DNA of 35,307 bases from Micavibrio sp. (GCA_002695035.1 NZNU01000076.1:1-35307), one strand, 5' to 3'; counted from the first letter of the stretch, positions 16,090 through 29,408 are shown. Numbers and translations are program-made. The notes: generated by a model not told the origin, from the letters alone.

Positions 16090-17042
16090 GCGACCTCTTC
16101 ATCATTATGACGCAAATCAGTAGGGCTTCCGGCCGGGTCGACATGTATCATAATTTCGGATTGCGGGAAGGTTTTGTAAATTTCTCTCTCGACTTCTAAG
16201 GCAATCTCATGCGCCGACCAGAGAAGAATATTCGGGTCTACCTCTATATCAAAAGTAATAAGGATTTTCATCCCAGAGCGGATAACGCGCAGATCGTGAT
16301 AATCCTTCACAGAGGAATGTGACAAAATGATATCGATAATTTCCTGTCTTGTATCATTATCCATTTCGCGGTCAAGAAGCATATCAACAGCATTTTTGCC
16401 GACTCCGTATCCGATATGCCAGACATAGCCTGCAATGATTAAAGCAAATACGGGGTCAATAATTTGCGGCAATCCCATTGCGGTACCGATGAGAACGGCC
16501 AGAACGCCCAGATTAATGAAAATATCAGAATGATAATGGGCGTGGTCTGCCTCAATTGCCAGAGAGTCGGTACTTTCAATGGCATGCTTTTGAATACGCG
16601 TCAGGACAAAGGTGAGTATGAGGGTAAGAACAATAACACCTGCTGCAAAGCCCTGATCAGTTATAGGTTTGGGAGTAATTATATTTAATATGGCGTTGTA
16701 AAAGACAACTGTTCCGGCCCCGATAATGAAGACAGATTGTATGAGGGCGAATAGTCCTTCAATTTTCCCGTGCCCGTATCGGTGGCATTCATCAGCGGGC
16801 TTGAGGGACATCTTTACCGATAACAGAGCTGTTGCCGACATCATTATATCGGCAAGGGAATCGGTCAGAGTGGACAACACGCTGACAGAGCCGCTTAAAA
16901 AATATGCTGCAGCCTTTGCAAACAACATAATACCTACAATGACGATAGCAGCCCAGCCAGCAAAAACGGCGCGGCTGGGGTCGAACAGAGCCTTATCAGA
17001 ATCTGCGTCGCGCCCGGAGTGGTTGTGTGGCTGTGTATCCAT
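16086..17042 (-). CDS. Cation diffusion facilitator (CDF/FieF-type) metal exporter
   Basis: About 318 residues from ATG 17042; an in-frame start at 17114 would add 24 residues. Six hydrophobic segments are followed by a cytosolic C-terminal domain of about 90 residues. The family signature is clear: SVSVLSTLTDSLADIMMSA in TM2 (metal Asp pair D..AD), YGHGKIEGLFALIQS after TM3, and DSLAIEADHAHYHSDIFINLGVL in TM5 with the H-x3-D pair. Those acidic/His sites bind Zn2+, Fe2+, Mn2+ or Cd2+ and exchange them for protons. The N-terminus has a short His-containing stretch (QPHNHSG). The SD is weak. It leads the glk-GGCT run and diverges from the 2OG oxygenase gene across about 100 bp. Confidence 0.9.
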   Translation of the reverse strand: MDTQPHNHSGRDADSDKALFDPSRAVFAGWAAIVIVGIMLFAKAAAYFLSGSVSVLSTLTDSLADIMMSATALLSVKMSLKPADECHRYGHGKIEGLFALIQSVFIIGAGTVVFYNAILNIITPKPITDQGFAAGVIVLTLILTFVLTRIQKHAIESTDSLAIEADHAHYHSDIFINLGVLAVLIGTAMGLPQIIDPVFALIIAGYVWHIGYGVGKNAVDMLLDREMDNDTRQEIIDIILSHSSVKDYHDLRVIRSGMKILITFDIEVDPNILLWSAHEIALEVEREIYKTFPQSEIMIHVDPAGSPTDLRHNDEEVA

Positions 17043-17143
17043 AAAGATAGTTGTACCTAAAATCGCATCATTTGAAAAGACTTGGTAGAAGCCTGATAAA
17101 AGGTAAAATTGCATGTAGTTGCGGTCTGAGGTATATTTTGGAA

Positions 17144-18085
17144 ATGAATTCTATACCTATAATTGATGTAAGCTCACTTTATAATACCGGCAAAGCTACT
17201 GATTCCGTTGATACGGAAATCGGAGAAGCTTTGCATAAAGCAGGTTTTGCGGTTTTAACTAACGCAAAAGTGGATTTTGGATTGATCGGGGAAATTCAGA
17301 AATTCTTCCAGTTGGGCGAATCTGAAAAAATGGAATATGCAAAAAACTATTATAAGTCCGAAAATACCAACCTTTACCGCGGATATTTTCCTGCAGACTA
17401 CACTGCCAATGCGCCTAAGGAAGGATATGATATAGGCCCACCGGACAAAATGCAGCCCGAAAGCGGGGATCCTTTTCTTGAAGAAAATATATGGCCTGAG
17501 CATCTGGATGACTGGCAAAACGCTATGTGTAAATATTATGCAGAAGTCGAGACACTTGGGTTTCATCTTTTGGATTCTATTGCGAGATATTTAGGGATAG
17601 ATAAACAATGGCTGTCATCACGGTTTGAGGGGCATCGCTCTACTTTGCGCCCGATAAGATATCCTTACAATGAAAGCTATACACATAAGGAAATATGTGC
17701 CCCTCATGTGGATTCAGGTTTTTTGACAATCCTGTATCAGGATACAATTGGCGGGCTTCAGGCAAAGTCACCATTTTCTGAGAATGATGATGGTTATATT
17801 GATGTTCCTGCGGTCAAAAACAGTTTTGCAATTAATATCGGCAAGACGGCCGAACGCTGGAGTAATGGCTATTTTAAAGCAACTGAGCACAGAGTATTGA
17901 ACAGTTTTAAGGAACGCTATTCTGTGCCTTTTTTCTTTGAGCCGGCTTTTGACACGGTCATTGATGTTTTGCCCTCATCAAAAATTAATAAAGCCCCGTC
18001 GCATTCACCGGAAAACTATAAAAATATTATGATAGAAAATATTAAAAATTTTAGTGAGTATAGTGGACTTTTTGGTCAAAACTGA
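17144..18085 (+). CDS. 2-oxoglutarate/Fe(II)-dependent oxygenase (isopenicillin-N-synthase-like)
   Basis: 313 residues from ATG 17144, chosen because PIIDVSSLY is the family's usual beginning and a GGAA precedes it; an upstream start at 17051 would overlap the divergent CDF gene. The N-terminal DIOX_N region (about 1-120) is followed by the double-stranded beta-helix. The Fe ligands are visible as His188-x-Asp190 (APHVDSGFLTIL) and His249 (ATEHRVLN), and Arg258 with Ser260 (RYS) is the 2-oxoglutarate anchor. Members hydroxylate or cyclise small molecules; bacterial copies with unassigned substrates are common. It stands alone on the plus strand, 47 bp before mdh. Confidence 0.88.
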   Translation: MNSIPIIDVSSLYNTGKATDSVDTEIGEALHKAGFAVLTNAKVDFGLIGEIQKFFQLGESEKMEYAKNYYKSENTNLYRGYFPADYTANAPKEGYDIGPPDKMQPESGDPFLEENIWPEHLDDWQNAMCKYYAEVETLGFHLLDSIARYLGIDKQWLSSRFEGHRSTLRPIRYPYNESYTHKEICAPHVDSGFLTILYQDTIGGLQAKSPFSENDDGYIDVPAVKNSFAINIGKTAERWSNGYFKATEHRVLNSFKERYSVPFFFEPAFDTVIDVLPSSKINKAPSHSPENYKNIMIENIKNFSEYSGLFGQN

Positions 18086-18132
18086 CGTAACGTGATCTAA
18101 ATTTATATTTAAAAAAGAAAGGTTCTATTCCT

Positions 18133-19128
18133 ATGAAAACTCCCGTACATGTCGCTGTTACAGGTGCCGCAGGCCAGATAGGCTATGCGCTTTTATTCCG
18201 TATTGCTTCCGGCGAAATGCTGGGTAAAGACCAGCCTGTATGTTTGCACCTTCTTGAAATCACACCTGCACTGGATGCTTTGAAAGGTGTTGTTATGGAG
18301 CTGAAAGACTGCGCCTTTCCATTGCTTCACGATATTGTGGCGACGGACAAGGCAGAAGAGGCATTTAAGGATGTAAGTTATGCCCTTCTGGTTGGTGCAC
18401 GCCCCCGCGGCCCGGGCATGGAGCGTAAGGATCTGTTAGAAGCAAACGGCGCGATTTTCGGCCCGCAAGGGAAAGCTCTGAATGATCATGCCAAACGCGA
18501 TGTAAAAGTTCTGGTAGTCGGAAATCCTGCCAATACAAATGCGCTGATTGCACAGCAGAATGCGCCTGACCTTGACCCCAGATGTTTTACCGCAATGGTG
18601 CGTCTTGACCATAATCGCGCAATGAGCCAGCTGGCTGATAAAACAGATAAGCATTCAACCGATATCAAAAAAATGACTATTTGGGGTAACCACTCCTCTA
18701 CCCAATATCCTGATCTATACCATGCAACAGTTGATGGTAAACCTGCCATGGATACAGTGGATGAGGACTGGTACGAAAATACATTTATACCCGATGTACA
18801 GCAGCGCGGGGCGGCCATTATCAAGGCGCGCGGGGCGTCTTCTGCCGCCTCTGCCGCCTCTGCTGCCATTGATCATATGCGTTCATGGGCGTTGGGAACT
18901 GATGAGGGTGACTGGGTTTCAATGGCCATTCCCTCTGACGGATCATATGGTATCGAAGAAGGTGTTATATATGGCTATCCCGTAACCTGTAAGGACGGTA
19001 AGTATGAAATTGTACAGGGTCTGGAAATAGGTGAGTTTTCACGCGCGCGCATGGATGCGACTGAAAAAGAACTGAGAGAAGAACGCGCAGCCGTTGAAGG
19101 TCTTTTCCCGAAAAGCAAAGCTGCTTAG
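18133..19128 (+). CDS. mdh: Malate dehydrogenase (NAD-dependent, cytosolic-type)
   Basis: 331 residues. The nucleotide-binding start is [25 protein letters not shown], as in the malate dehydrogenases of Burkholderia, actinobacteria and Thermus and eukaryotic cytosolic MDH. Substrate arginines are in [15 protein letters not shown] (Arg92 and Arg98) and MVRLDHNRA (Asp159, Arg162); the catalytic His187 is in [10 protein letters not shown]. It interconverts malate and oxaloacetate in the TCA cycle. Most alphaproteobacteria use the shorter LDH-like MDH encoded beside sucCD, so this type is unusual here. An AGAAAGG SD precedes the ATG, and a strong terminator follows, so it is probably monocistronic. 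Confidence 0.93.
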
Positions 19129-23936: not shown

Positions 23937-24281
23937 ATGAGTGAATTACCCAACTGCCCAAAATGTGACTCCCCCTATACTTATGAAGACGGGGTATTGT
24001 TGAATTGCCCCGAATGCGGACACCAATGGTCAAAAAATCAGGCAGAGAGTGGTGCAAACCAAAAGGTAATCCGTGATGCAAATGGTAACGAATTGGCAGA
24101 TGGAGACACGGTCACTGTTATCAAAGACCTGAAAGTCAAGGGCTCATCCTCAGTCGTAAAGGTCGGCACAAAGGTCAAGAATATCAGGCTTGTTGAAGGC
24201 GACCATGATATTGACTGTAAAATTCCGGGTATCGGTGCAATGGGCCTTAAGTCGGAATTTGTCAAAAAGGTGACTGATTAG
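23937..24281 (+). CDS. yjdM: Zinc-ribbon protein YjdM (PhnA family)
   Basis: 114 residues, family length. The N-terminal zinc ribbon has CPKC (Cys7, Cys10) and CPEC (Cys24, Cys27). The C-terminal SH3-like domain reads [24 protein letters not shown] then [20 protein letters not shown] and [10 protein letters not shown], all diagnostic of YjdM/PhnA. The family was named for closeness to phosphonate genes in E. coli, but its function is not established. An AAGGA SD lies about 8 nt before the ATG. It is divergent from the PiT-like permease and convergent with the exchanger gene, 24 bp away. Confidence 0.92.
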
Positions 24282-24305: not shown

Positions 24306-25364
24306 TCAGGCTCTGACCATGTAGAGCGCCAAAAGGCTTAGAATATACCCGACCAGTATCAATGCAGAATCTATGCCGAGAGTGAAAATTTTCCTGCGCG
24401 GCCGTATGAGTAGTCCAAGGCAGTATATTGCTGTCAGAATTACTCCAGATCCCAAGGCGATACGTTCAGCCAGACCTATCTCGTTGATAACCGCGCCAGA
24501 GCGGAAGAAAATATCAACAGGAAAAACAAGAAAGGTCATAATCAGGTTGCTGCCCATTATATTTGTAATGGCCATCGTATAAGCCCTGACTTTTACAGCG
24601 GCAAGAGAGGTGCTGAGTTCCGGCAGGGAGGTGGTCAATGCAAGAAGGGAAGCTCCAATGAAACTTGTTCCCAGCCCTGTCTGTTCCGCCAGGGTTTCTG
24701 CCAAAGACACAACCAGGGCGCCGCTGATGAGAATAATAATTGCGGCAATAGCAGTGCCCGTAAAAAGTTTTATGCGCGAATACTCATCAAAGCGGTTATT
24801 GCGCTCTTTTAAATTTTTATCATCGGGCACGTCCACCAGCGACCATCCTGCATGTGTTTCAAAGCGTTGCATGCTGTAAGTCGCCAAGACATATATGGCT
24901 GCGATAATGCAGCTTCCCAACCCTATATTCCAGGCAAGAATGAAATCACCGGTAAAGCTGAACATTAATAATGTCGACAAGGATATAATTAAAAACAATC
25001 CTGCCATTACCGGGGTTAGCTGTTTTGGAAAAGATGTCATGGTTTTGTGAATGACAAAAATATCCACTATGGCAAGTACGGCAAGCTGAAGTAGCATACC
25101 GCCAAACATATTATTGAGAGCAAGGTTGCCCTGCTCGTTGAGGGATGCCGTCAGTGTTGTAACCATCTCGGGAAGCTCGGTGGCTGTTGCCAGTAATATG
25201 AGTCCCAAGAAAGCGCGCGCGATTTTGGTCTGTTCGGCAATAGCATCGACAAGATAAGAGATCCGCGTTCCGGCAATACAGATTGATGCCGCTAGAATAA
25301 GAAAAAAACCCAGATTTATTGCAAGGCTAAATTGTTCAAACAATGCATTTGTCCCATTCACCAT
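24306..25364 (-). CDS. Ca2+/cation antiporter (CaCA) family membrane protein
   Basis: 352 residues in two homologous halves of about five membrane segments. The alpha repeats are visible: LGLILLATATELPEMVTTL (residues 53-71) with NNMFGGMLLQ in the first half, and FIGASLLALTTSLPELSTSL (235-254) with NIMGSNLIM in the second. The acidic residue of each [T/S]-[T/S]-E/S-LPE motif coordinates Ca2+ or Na+ in this superfamily. A cytosolic linker of about 35 charged residues (165-199) joins the halves, shorter than in eukaryotic NCX. Its start lies inside the fusion gene's end (29-bp overlap), so it is translated from the same mRNA and probably shares its stress promoter. Confidence 0.87.
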   Translation of the reverse strand: MVNGTNALFEQFSLAINLGFFLILAASICIAGTRISYLVDAIAEQTKIARAFLGLILLATATELPEMVTTLTASLNEQGNLALNNMFGGMLLQLAVLAIVDIFVIHKTMTSFPKQLTPVMAGLFLIISLSTLLMFSFTGDFILAWNIGLGSCIIAAIYVLATYSMQRFETHAGWSLVDVPDDKNLKERNNRFDEYSRIKLFTGTAIAAIIILISGALVVSLAETLAEQTGLGTSFIGASLLALTTSLPELSTSLAAVKVRAYTMAITNIMGSNLIMTFLVFPVDIFFRSGAVINEIGLAERIALGSGVILTAIYCLGLLIRPRRKIFTLGIDSALILVGYILSLLALYMVRA

Positions 25365-27804
25365 AAGTATTGAGAATTTTACCCTTTGGAAAGCTGAGCC
25401 CTATCAGTGCAAGACCGCATATGAGACTTGAAACCATATGTGCAAGACCTACTCCGTAAATAAATGGCGTAAAGAGCAGGGCGGCTCCCAGTGGAATAAG
25501 GAAAAAGCGCAAGCTCCGGCCCGACTCGGCGAGTGCCGTGATAACGACTGTAACGGCAATTGCACCGATAAGATGGTCAGCATCGGCCATGCCCCCGGAT
25601 GCATCAAGGGTCAGTCTGGTAAACATCAGCCAAATACCTATGGCTATACAGAGCAGGAGTGACCATGGTAATGTAATACCGCCGGTAAGCATTTCTTTTA
25701 CAATAGCGAATGGCGGCTGGGCAAAATTGTCTTCCTCGTTTTCCCATTGACCTTCATCAGTATCTCCTGTGAAAAATATTTTTATCAAAGGACGACCCTT
25801 TTTCTTGCGCCGCCATAAAAAGGCGGATGTCGCAACCAGCTCATCCAGGGAATAAGGAATCTGGATAAGCATCGCAGCCGCGGCGATCAGGCAAAGCGTA
25901 CACCACGTGCCAAGCATTATAGGCTGTATAATAATGAAGAAAATTGAAACCGCTCCAAGGGGTACAATCATTATACCAAAAAGCATGACCAGCCAGGGCA
26001 TGGTGCGCCAACGGCGTGAAGATCCGATCAAACCGGTGAGAATTTCAAGCGCGTAAGTCATTGCGCCCAATCCTGCATCTGGAACTGGCCATGCCTCGGA
26101 AACGGAAGAGGTTATAATTTCTTCCGTACCGTTTTGCGGGTCGCCTGCTGAGCCTGTAAAAAACGGCTCCCAGACGCCCTCAATATGACCGAGCTGGTAG
26201 GCGCATAGATAGCGTGAGATAAAAAATCCGATAAACGCCAAGATAATGATCGGGAGTCTTTGGAACCAGCTGGACGGACAGAATTGCCAGCCGGGCGGAA
26301 TAGTTGGCCCTGTCTGCGCAGCAACGGGAGAGATGCCCGGGAAGGGACGGACCAGCACTGAAAAACCTATAATAAGCATACCAATTATGGTTCCGTTAAG
26401 ATAGGCTGCAGCCGTAGGCGCCCAAAAAACAAGGGGGGCGCCCAAAACCCAAATACCGATAAGGCCGCACGCCCATCGGGCCATACCGAACTTTCTGGAC
26501 AGTGAAAGGAAAGCAAAAACCAGAAGGGCGCAGCCTGAAATTACGTCACTCCAGATCATGCCCATGGATTCATAAGAGAGAATAAAAGGAGAGCTTATGA
26601 GCCAAAGCGCAAGCCCCAAATTCATGAAATGTGCCCAAATGCTGCCAGCGTGCTCTTTTGCTGCTTGTGTCTGGTGTTTTTGACGAATCTCATCAGGATT
26701 TACGTGTTTTTCCTCGGCTCCTATAACCCAGTCAGGAGCAGTGATACCATTGGCTTTATACCAGCTGGCAGGATCTTTTTTTAAATTCCCGATAAGCGTT
26801 TCCAGACCCTTATGAATATCGTGCTCAGGGACCCATCCTAATTGATCCTTAGCGCGGGATATGTCCAGGTCATAGTGGTCGGAGGCCAGATCAATCATAA
26901 ACGACCTTATAAAAGGTTTTTCCCCTTTATCAATGTCGTCAGGGATGACCGGCTCCATTTTTTCTTCAATAGAAGCCCCCATTTTGGCTGCAAATTCTGG
27001 TAAAGACAATGTATTCCATTCGTGTTGACCGTATATCAAATCACCTATACGGTTTTGCAAAGCCTGATATCCAAGTACTGCTTCTTCCCCGGCGAGAATA
27101 ATATTTTCATGAGGCAGGTCATTTCTTTTTTCAATAACTTTTAGAAACAAATCAAGCATATCGTCCTGATGAATAAAAGCCTGACCGGCGCTTAAATCTC
27201 CGGCATAGAGATGACTTTTAAAATCTTTCTCATAGATCCGAGCTATTTGTTCAGCCAGTGTAGGCACAGCTGTGTGTTCATTATAAAGCCCGGCAAGGCG
27301 TAATATGGTGTATGGGATATTCCCATGTGTTTCAATTAGGGCTTTTTCAGCATTTGCTTTGGATTCCGGATATGCCCATCCCGGCTGGATGGGGGTCTTT
27401 TCGGTAATCTTTTGTCCGGGCACGCCTGCTTTGTGTACCAGCATTGTCCCTGAATAAATGAAGCGCTCCACATTGAAAGTCTGAAGCGCTTTTAAAAGAT
27501 GTTTTGTACCTTCAACATTAACGGTCTGATAGAGCGGTGACTCTTCACCGCTGAAATCGAAATAGGCAGCCAGGTGAATAACAGCGGCGATATCCGTGCC
27601 GAATTTTTCCCGAATTTTATGTAACTGTAAATCAACAGAGTCCTGAGAAGTTAGATCGCATTTATAATTTTCATCTGCGATATCCGAGGCAACCACGTCA
27701 AGTCCCAGTATTGTAAATCTGTCTTTCAGACAGTGGGATAATGAAGTTCCGATATTGCCGGAAGCGCCGGTAATAAGTATTACAGGTTTTTCATTCTCAA
27801 CCAT
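25336..27804 (-). CDS. Fusion: NAD-dependent epimerase + SPW repeat + VKOR-like + SPW repeat
   Basis: 822 residues from ATG 27804 (SD GGGGGA, complement of 27809-27814). Numbering from an upstream in-frame ATG (27843, +13): residues 21-350 are an extended SDR epimerase (ITGASGNIG for NAD, catalytic YPESK at 158-162); 405-505 a membrane SPW repeat (LWLISSPFIL, GAPLVFW); 525-680 a vitamin-K-epoxide-reductase-like bundle with WPVPDAGLGAMTYALE and a WCTLC redox CXXC at 648-651; 735-822 a second SPW-like unit. The VKOR loop Cys pair found in canonical enzymes is absent between residues 548 and 647. A perfect EcfG promoter lies upstream, and its -10 covers the 27843 ATG, excluding that start. It is coupled to the CaCA exchanger. 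Function unknown; the membrane redox role is inference. Confidence 0.82.
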   Translation of the reverse strand: MVENEKPVILITGASGNIGTSLSHCLKDRFTILGLDVVASDIADENYKCDLTSQDSVDLQLHKIREKFGTDIAAVIHLAAYFDFSGEESPLYQTVNVEGTKHLLKALQTFNVERFIYSGTMLVHKAGVPGQKITEKTPIQPGWAYPESKANAEKALIETHGNIPYTILRLAGLYNEHTAVPTLAEQIARIYEKDFKSHLYAGDLSAGQAFIHQDDMLDLFLKVIEKRNDLPHENIILAGEEAVLGYQALQNRIGDLIYGQHEWNTLSLPEFAAKMGASIEEKMEPVIPDDIDKGEKPFIRSFMIDLASDHYDLDISRAKDQLGWVPEHDIHKGLETLIGNLKKDPASWYKANGITAPDWVIGAEEKHVNPDEIRQKHQTQAAKEHAGSIWAHFMNLGLALWLISSPFILSYESMGMIWSDVISGCALLVFAFLSLSRKFGMARWACGLIGIWVLGAPLVFWAPTAAAYLNGTIIGMLIIGFSVLVRPFPGISPVAAQTGPTIPPGWQFCPSSWFQRLPIIILAFIGFFISRYLCAYQLGHIEGVWEPFFTGSAGDPQNGTEEIITSSVSEAWPVPDAGLGAMTYALEILTGLIGSSRRWRTMPWLVMLFGIMIVPLGAVSIFFIIIQPIMLGTWCTLCLIAAAAMLIQIPYSLDELVATSAFLWRRKKKGRPLIKIFFTGDTDEGQWENEEDNFAQPPFAIVKEMLTGGITLPWSLLLCIAIGIWLMFTRLTLDASGGMADADHLIGAIAVTVVITALAESGRSLRFFLIPLGAALLFTPFIYGVGLAHMVSSLICGLALIGLSFPKGKILNTYGEWDKCIV

Positions 27805-27841
27805 AAATTCCCCCATAGTGTTACGGATGTAAATAGACCCC

Positions 27842-27866
27842 AACGGATATGTTTGGTTTTAGTTCC
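27842..27866 (-). promoter_or_regulatory. EcfG (general stress sigma factor) promoter for the fusion gene
   Basis: The minus strand reads GGAAC (complement of 27862-27866), 16 nt, then CGTT (complement of 27842-27845). This is an exact match to the GGAAC-N16/17-CGTT consensus of the alphaproteobacterial general-stress sigma factor EcfG. The predicted transcript starts near 27835, about 30 nt before the chosen start codon. Confidence 0.72.
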
Positions 27867-27878
27867 TTAAGAAATATT

Positions 27879-27904
27879 GGAACTTTCAGCGGTCCCGAGC
27901 CATT
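27879..27904 (+). promoter_or_regulatory. Possible weak EcfG-type promoter for the baeRF3-like gene
   Basis: GGAAC at 27879-27883, 17 nt, then CATT at 27901-27904: one mismatch to CGTT. It points at the baeRF3-like gene, 52 bp ahead, and lies beside the perfect divergent EcfG site. Confidence 0.4.
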
Positions 27905-27956
27905 TTTTTAATGAAAAGAATATGACTAAAAACAGACAAGAGACCAAGAGGATACC

Positions 27957-29117
27957 ATGAAAACGCTTACAGATATTACACAACAAACTTTGATTGACCT
28001 GACAGACAAAGAACATGACGCATGTATTTCTCTTTATATGCCAATGGTAGAGGCGGGGCCGGAAACCCGTCAAAATACTATTCGTTTTAAAACGCTTTAC
28101 CAAAATGCTGAGCAGAAAATGGAAAAATACGGCATGGATCAGGAAACAATTTCCGAATTTATTGCACCGCTCGAAAAACTGGAAAATGATACTGCGTTTT
28201 GGGAAGACAGAAGTCCCGGGCTCGCGGTTTTTTTATGTCCGCATGACATTTGTGTATATAAATCGGAAATGCCTTTCGAAGAAGAAGCCGTAGTCGACAA
28301 AAACTTTTATATTCGTCCTCTACTTACAGAGCTTGACCAGAACAAAACATTTACCGTTTTGCTTATAAATCCTGATGAACCGCGTTTGATGAAATGCAAT
28401 AACACAGCTTGCAAAAACTCACGCAGCTTTCCCGGTTATTTAGAATCCATGGAAAAATTCTTGAGTCACCACGATTTTGAAGAGAGTCTGCAACACAATA
28501 CCAGTCGCGAGGCGCCGCATTTTCACGGTCAAGGAACTGCTGGTGACAAAGATCAAGAAAACCAATATATGTTGGAATATTACAAGCAGTTAAAAAACTG
28601 GCTGCACGACAATGGTTATATAAATGATACAAATACTTTGTGGCTGATCGGCGATGATCGTAGCACAGGCATATTTACAAAAATTAGTGAAAGCCTGTCA
28701 GGTAAAACGCCTGTTCTACTGCAAAAAAATGTTTCCGGTGAAGATGATGACAAAATTCATGAAGCCATTCAGCAACATGTTACAAAATTTTCTTACGAAG
28801 CTGATCAGGAAGAATTAGAGACTTTCCAAAATCAGGCGAATGACGATGAGATTTCAACATTGCAGGAAACAAAAGATATCGTCACCGCCGCACATGATAA
28901 GCGTATCTCGAAATTATTTGTGCCTTCAAACAGCAAGAAAATTTGGGGCACGTTTAAAGCCGAAAGTCACGAAACTATTGTAAGGGATGACGCCACTAAG
29001 GAAGTTGGCGAAGAGCTTTACAATCTTGCCGCGATCAAAACATTACAAAACGGTGGAAGTGTCGTGACAAACGATAATATTCCCGAAGATAAAACTCTGG
29101 CTGTTTGCCACTGGTAA
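27957..29117 (+). CDS. baeRF3-like protein (bacterial eRF1-related family)
   Basis: 386 residues, soluble. The layout matches the bacterial archaeo-eukaryotic-release-factor-like (baeRF) group, subgroup 3/7: an N-terminal domain with CISLYMPMVEAGPETRQNTIRFK and FWEDRSPGLAVFLCP, a middle RNase-H-like domain starting FYIRPLLTELDQNKTFTVLLIN, and a C-terminal L7Ae-like domain ending EELYNLAAIKTLQNGGSVV. Comparative genomics has suggested that baeRFs act at the ribosome under stress or hibernation; this is not proven biochemically for this group. There is no GGQ release motif. A good SD (AGAGGA) precedes ATG 27957. The Rho_N mini-gene follows 27 bp later on the same strand, probably one operon. 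Confidence 0.78.
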   Translation: MKTLTDITQQTLIDLTDKEHDACISLYMPMVEAGPETRQNTIRFKTLYQNAEQKMEKYGMDQETISEFIAPLEKLENDTAFWEDRSPGLAVFLCPHDICVYKSEMPFEEEAVVDKNFYIRPLLTELDQNKTFTVLLINPDEPRLMKCNNTACKNSRSFPGYLESMEKFLSHHDFEESLQHNTSREAPHFHGQGTAGDKDQENQYMLEYYKQLKNWLHDNGYINDTNTLWLIGDDRSTGIFTKISESLSGKTPVLLQKNVSGEDDDKIHEAIQQHVTKFSYEADQEELETFQNQANDDEISTLQETKDIVTAAHDKRISKLFVPSNSKKIWGTFKAESHETIVRDDATKEVGEELYNLAAIKTLQNGGSVVTNDNIPEDKTLAVCHW

Positions 29118-29144
29118 TTTAAAAATTCCGAAAGGAGAACGAAA

Positions 29145-29408
29145 ATGGCTAAAAATCATGGAAACCAGATTAGAAATGATGAAGTCTACGAAGAGCTAAG
29201 GGATCAGGGCGCAAGCAAGGAAAAAGCAGCCCGTATCGCAAACGCTCAGGCCAATCCCAGTCAAAACCCTTCGAAAAAAGGCGGGGAAAGCTCACCTTAT
29301 GAGGAGTGGACTAAAGACGAGCTTTATAAGCGTGCGCAAGAAATTGATATCGAGGGGCGTTCGGATATGGACAAAGGCGAATTAATTAAAGCGCTAAGAA
29401 ACCATTAG
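29145..29408 (+). CDS. Small Rho_N-domain protein (DUF7218-like)
   Basis: 87 residues. The N-terminal half (MAKNHGNQIRNDEVYEELRDQG followed by SKEKAARIANAQAN) matches small stress-associated proteins that start GNQIKDDE.Y..LR..G.SKEKAARIAN. The C-terminal half, EEWTKDELYKRAQEIDIEGRSDMDKGELIKALR, is the helical SAP/Rho N-terminal fold, which binds nucleic acid in Rho. A linker rich in Asn, Pro, Ser and Lys joins them. An AAAGGAG SD precedes the ATG. It is probably co-transcribed with the baeRF3-like gene. Its stop overlaps the convergent CPA2 gene by 4 bp. Confidence 0.8.
   Translation: MAKNHGNQIRNDEVYEELRDQGASKEKAARIANAQANPSQNPSKKGGESSPYEEWTKDELYKRAQEIDIEGRSDMDKGELIKALRNH

Follow-up and report, generated by a model that had tools for sequence, protein, structure and literature searches.

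Two divergent units behind putative EcfG-type promoters, a Balon-like protein and an SDR-SPW-VKOR membrane fusion, in a Micavibrio accessory locus

Why should a membrane fusion protein with a VKOR-like domain and a relative of a ribosome hibernation factor be encoded back to back across a 152-bp gap, and would one regulator govern both? The question is raised by a 35,307-nt stretch of DNA from Micavibrio sp. (GCA_002695035.1 NZNU01000076.1:1-35307), referred to at its full length as the window; the host assembly is 2.14 Mb and ~96% complete, and its named relatives are Micavibrio metagenome-assembled genomes. An earlier note, made from the sequence alone, had placed the fusion and a CaCA exchanger leftward of the gap and an eRF1-related protein and a mini-protein rightward of it, and had proposed that the four form one general-stress module. 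The layout was borne out by coordinates and Pfam matches. The explanation that best fits the locus as a whole, and which we consider probable from sequence comparison, would be an accessory general-stress locus of two divergent EcfG-type-controlled units, one contributing Balon-type hibernation and the other a membrane redox fusion. The genes and the predicted promoters between them are as follows.

24306-25364, minus strand: CaCA-type sodium/calcium exchanger (Pfam Na_Ca_ex, 8.9e-27)
25336-27804, minus strand: SDR (extended, epimerase-type)-SPW-VKOR-like-SPW membrane fusion, 822 aa (Pfam Epimerase 5e-25; SPW, two stretches, 1.9e-17; VKOR 8e-25)
27842-27866, minus strand: predicted EcfG-type promoter toward the fusion, perfect GGAAC-N16-CGTT, ending 38 nt 5′ of the fusion ATG
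27879-27904, plus strand: predicted EcfG-type promoter toward the Balon-like gene, one mismatch, GGAAC-N17-CATT, ending 53 nt 5′ of the ATG
27957-29117, plus strand: Balon-like (baeRF) protein, 386 aa (NCBIfam NF052287, 7.5e-24; profile against Balon 8rd8_B, 2.4e-46)
29145-29408, plus strand: DUF7218 mini-protein, 87 aa, with a sub-threshold Rho_N-like C-terminus (DUF7218 1.5e-22; Rho_N 0.00043)

The intergenic gap spans 27805-27956, given a fusion start at the ATG of MVENEKP, and the exchanger gene overlaps the 3′ end of the fusion gene by 29 nt. Both promoter-like sites claimed for the gap were recovered, the perfect one facing the fusion and the one-mismatch site facing the eRF1-related gene. 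The former is the sole perfect match in the window, where 0.84 would be expected with spacers of 15-18. When the gap was subjected to 20,000 dinucleotide shuffles, the chance of a perfect site on its minus strand was 0.0007. For its plus strand, allowing up to one mismatch, the chance was 0.025 taken alone, and no shuffle produced both sites together.

Genome-wide motif figures were obtained by pattern searches together with individually retrieved loci. Twelve of the 28 perfect sites in the genome sit 36-68 nt 5′ of a start codon, compared to ~0.6 expected (Poisson P ~1.6e-12), both values assuming a gene density of one per kb, and the perfect site of the window shares its spacing to the start with 11 others. 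Genes downstream of several sites resemble stress genes by eye (CsbD-like, glycine-zipper lipoproteins, DJ-1-like, DUF883-like), family searches having covered part of them at most. Four perfect sites surround an ECF sigma factor gene at C14:50679-51221, whose product has weak, sub-threshold PhyR_sigma2 similarity and matches no curated EcfG model above cut-off. The sigma-like domain of PhyR mimics EcfG. This candidate is termed EcfG-like rather than EcfG. The surrounding cluster (G000:C14:44000-60000, locus L115) also encodes an OmpR-type regulator and a large membrane protein with the appearance of a sensor kinase; with neither NepR nor PhyR recognised, it possibly represents a general stress response driven by a different switch.

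The site recurs in relatives. The fusion is carried by four of the 142 genomes of the order, the window genome included, and homologues within the order are 65-68% identical. A perfect site lies 37 nt 5′ of the fusion in relative G034 and 5′ of a small open reading frame running into the fusion in G511 (UBA1664), and in G500 (UBA2705) a one-mismatch site precedes an operon of a small open reading frame, a pyridoxamine-oxidase-like gene, the fusion and a CaCA exchanger. In G034 the Balon-like gene, located on a separate contig from the fusion, has its own perfect site 43 nt 5′ of the ATG. Leaving the window aside, 25 distinct fusion loci from alphaproteobacteria were scanned, and four of them had a perfect site within 300 bp; random windows drawn from those loci predict 0.22 (binomial P 6.5e-5). 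A looser form, GGAAC-N18/19-TT, was present at six or more of the 25 (P 2.5e-4), or seven counting locus L087, which has a one-mismatch site upstream of the fusion; neither the perfect nor the looser form was detected at the nine beta- and gammaproteobacterial fusion loci scanned. Loci L109 and L133 are the same contig. Taken together, the sites, their distances to starts, the EcfG-like sigma gene and the recurrence before homologues support the EcfG-type control proposed earlier, and general-stress control of both units can be regarded as well supported at the level of sequence.

Two further sites were noted elsewhere. The fusion homologue on Sinorhizobium meliloti pSymB (strain 2011, 16483-19014; L090, around 7958) has the looser form, GGAAC-N18-TT, 43 nt upstream, and the DUF7218 gene of the alphaproteobacterium G229 (L130, 4723-5034) has a one-mismatch EcfG-type site ~33 nt upstream.

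The eRF1-like protein of the rightward unit had been labelled baeRF3. That label was not retained: its best Pfam match is baeRF family 7 (41 bits; cut-off 27.2), with family 3 at 28.9 falling under the cut-off of 31.5. The best NCBIfam match is NF052287, the AOC03_06830 family of ribosome hibernation factors (E 7.5e-24), at 84.9 bits against an equivalog cut-off of 330, below the curated threshold; all eight homologues in the alignment (A4) match this model as well. AOC03_06830 is the Balon gene of Psychrobacter urativorans. A single-sequence match to Balon was marginal (E 0.043). A profile of the eight homologues aligned positions 9-383 with Balon 2-369 across all three aeRF1-like domains (8rd8_B; E 2.4e-46), and matched MSMEG_1130 at E 5.6e-14. 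The protein thus resembles Balon and MSMEG_1130/Rv2629 in full-length three-domain homology and in its lack of GGQ and NIKS, neither string occurring in it. It differs from Balon in its distance (84.9 bits versus 330). In the marginal alignment the Balon string EHPA, a candidate for the published HP motif that contacts the decoding centre, pairs with AGPE, placing GP opposite the Balon ‘HP’.

Balon, together with EF-Tu, occupies the ribosomal A site during cold shock and stationary phase (Nature 2024, PMC10901736); it co-occurs with RaiA, and Balon genes often neighbour stress genes (PMC10901736), a context seen here also. An S30AE/HPF gene is likewise present in this genome. For the baeRF clade, an earlier survey had already suggested that its members inhibit ribosomes, and had pointed out connections with HPF (PMC6514570). 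Judged from the profile alignment, the window baeRF protein is a distant full-length Balon homologue and would be expected to be a ribosome hibernation factor, a prediction that supports the earlier claim of action at the ribosome and offers a specific function to expect of the rightward unit. In the literature searched, no description was found of EcfG-type promoter control of Balon, MSMEG_1130 or Rv2629 factors. If EcfG does directly control Balon-type factors, the newest known route of ribosome hibernation would be joined to the regulator that dominates the stress response in a large class of bacteria.

The second gene of the rightward unit had been read as a Rho_N-like protein acting on nucleic acid. 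It is foremost a DUF7218 protein (80 bits, above cut-off), with Rho_N reaching only 20.6 bits (cut-off 24.9); a role on nucleic acid, which depends on that sub-threshold match, is not supported. An adjacent pair of baeRF and DUF7218 genes was looked for and was found only in the window.

The fusion of the leftward unit belongs to a mobile family whose genes are frequently carried on plasmids and frequently have copper-resistance or cytochrome-oxidase genes in their neighbourhood. It was found on 166 plasmid records, 118 of which cover at least 80% of the query, and in five of 386 sampled alphaproteobacterial genomes. Because plasmid copies from Alteromonas (66% identity) are among the nearest relatives of the window copy, transfer of the gene between classes appears likely. 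A CaCA exchanger adjoins the fusion in G034, G500, Sulfitobacter indolifex and, divergently, Limimaricola, and cytochrome oxidase genes are nearby in Alteromonas and Sulfitobacter (by annotation) and in G511 (by eye). A branch of 41-44% identity neighbours copper and mercury resistance genes (CueR, multicopper oxidase, CopC/D, DUF411, DUF305). Loci of this branch (L098, L104, L105, L106, L107) are found on plasmids, mobilisable and conjugative ones included, within regions that confer resistance to copper, mercury or arsenic. Unfused SPW-VKOR genes occur in the haloarchaeon Haloprofundus and in Manganitrophus (L135, 3061-5466; L136, 2944-7262), where their neighbours include GH15, a classical SDR and copper proteins. 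The idea that this SDR is the domain of the fusion split off was rejected: it is a separate SDR of the classical type, and only part of its length aligns, at ~22% identity. A literature search on SPW with VKOR, or on EcfG with these families, returned no papers.

The Pfam VKOR match of the window fusion is strong (88 bits; cut-off 27.5); a direct sequence search of the domain against solved structures matched no VKOR, and the assignment is Pfam-based. The domain and its remaining cysteine motif map as follows.

25849-26253, minus strand: VKOR-like domain of the fusion, residues 518-652, without the loop cysteine pair
25891-25902, minus strand: CxxC of the VKOR-like domain, C635-C638, kept in the window copy

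Enzymes of the VKOR and DsbB types rely on both pairs of cysteines (PMC4555120, PMC11208910). To survey the cysteines, 33 fusion proteins and two unfused relatives were aligned. The loop between the first two helices is free of cysteine in all 35 copies, with its other conserved positions retained (NGTE, S-x-AWP, DAG-x-G). The CxxC is kept in 22 of the 33 fusion proteins and replaced in 11 (for example by STLA, ATLT or STPA); the tree requires three changes to explain the loss, and the three lineages concerned keep the rest of the domain. In the SDR domain, YxxxK is present in all copies and TGxxGxxG in nearly all. While the fusion thus resembles VKOR disulfide-forming enzymes in its Pfam domain and, in the window copy, in its CxxC, it differs from them in bearing an SDR and two SPW domains, in having no loop pair and in losing the CxxC in three lineages. 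These patterns make a conventional disulfide-forming role unlikely for the family, which on this alignment cannot as a whole depend on thiol chemistry; since the CxxC is kept in the window copy, some thiol chemistry may be possible there. The suggestion of envelope redox by VKOR disulfide formation is weakened to that extent. The family is widespread and mobile and is annotated ‘vitamin K epoxide reductase family protein’, a name that leads one to expect loop cysteines; these are missing, and some members have no CxxC either. It therefore represents a way of using the VKOR fold that is unstudied, and it probably gives rise to misannotation.

These observations can be assembled into a model. 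Under stress, an EcfG-type sigma factor would transcribe both divergent units from the single short gap, as the sites suggest. From the rightward unit, a Balon-type protein would enter the ribosomal A site and keep ribosomes inactive yet intact, as its full-length homology predicts, and the small DUF7218 protein would be made with it. The leftward unit would supply a cation exchanger and a membrane protein in which an NAD(P)-binding SDR faces the cytoplasm and a domain of VKOR fold lies in the membrane. Since loop cysteines are missing from the VKOR-like domain of every homologue, we propose that this domain might serve as a quinone-pocket partner of the SDR instead of passing disulfides to secreted proteins, perhaps sensing or adjusting membrane redox under stress or copper exposure; this proposal is speculative. 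A wider claim would be a cysteine-independent use of the VKOR fold with an SDR, as redox sensor or NAD(P)-quinone enzyme, that has spread on plasmids alongside genes for copper and stress and that here shares a single general-stress sigma factor with ribosome hibernation, and it must be considered doubtful. Within the model, EcfG dependence, ribosome binding and the quinone or redox role of the fusion are what we infer.

Several observations weigh against this model. The perfect motif is rarer in the genome than its reversed control (28 sites versus 63), so that motif count alone is little evidence and the case depends on where the sites lie. The Balon-like gene is faced by an imperfect site (CATT for CGTT). 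No NepR was recognised in the ~96% complete assembly, in which the PhyR_sigma2 model matches only the ECF sigma gene. The GGAAC-N16/17-CGTT promoters at a set distance from starts and the EcfG-like sigma gene in a stress-gene cluster thus resemble the EcfG-NepR-PhyR general stress response, but no canonical NepR-PhyR switch was recognised. AlphaFold models built from shallow alignments were unusable (mean predicted local distance difference test scores of 44 and 54). A search for the divergent pairing of fusion and baeRF through plasmids, the order (142 genomes) and the class (several hundred genomes) found it only in the window. That the sites are chance matches and the locus a random juxtaposition of horizontally acquired accessory genes would fit a short motif lacking genome-wide enrichment and a patchy, plasmid-borne family; it is very improbable, because the placement of the sites with respect to starts, and their reappearance ahead of one and the same gene in relatives whose upstream DNA has diverged, lie far beyond chance. 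A stress-induced, conventional VKOR-type disulfide-forming enzyme, with the SDR a secondary addition, would account for the Pfam score far above cut-off, for the CxxC retained by the window copy and by 22 of 33 homologues, and for DsbA, DsbD or TlpA genes near some plasmid homologues. It would leave unexplained the absence from all 35 copies of the loop pair that defines VKOR/DsbB function (PMC4555120, PMC11208910) and the loss of the CxxC in three separate lineages retaining the rest of the domain, and we consider it unlikely.

Whether the four genes are instead one dedicated system, coupling membrane redox state or cation flux directly to ribosome hibernation, turns on how often they occur together. 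Fusion and Balon-like genes stand in tandem in two of four Arsukibacterium genomes, from another class (Balon-like gene at L069, 12609-13748, and L072, 12484-13641), which argues for some shared benefit; the adjacency of fusion and CaCA exchanger recurs in four other lineages, and EcfG-type sites precede both units here. Against this, two other Arsukibacterium genomes (L068, L070) have no Balon-like gene at the same place beside the fusion, G034 keeps fusion and baeRF on different contigs, each with its own EcfG-type site, most fusion loci have no Balon-like gene in the flanks examined, and the DUF7218 pairing was not seen elsewhere. The check that the earlier note had itself suggested, conservation of the divergent arrangement across alphaproteobacteria, was run, and the arrangement was found in no other genome searched. 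A single dedicated system is therefore distinctly improbable, and the claim of one general-stress module was not supported, the divergent pairing and the baeRF-DUF7218 pair having been found only in the window and the G034 genes being unlinked. Stress control, we conclude, is what the genes have in common, and their physical coupling is loose; the locus is probably two separately recruited stress units sharing control, not one machine.

At the far end of the leftward unit, a YjdM/PhnA zinc-ribbon gene, not found near other fusion loci, lies at window positions 23937-24281, convergent with the CaCA exchanger.

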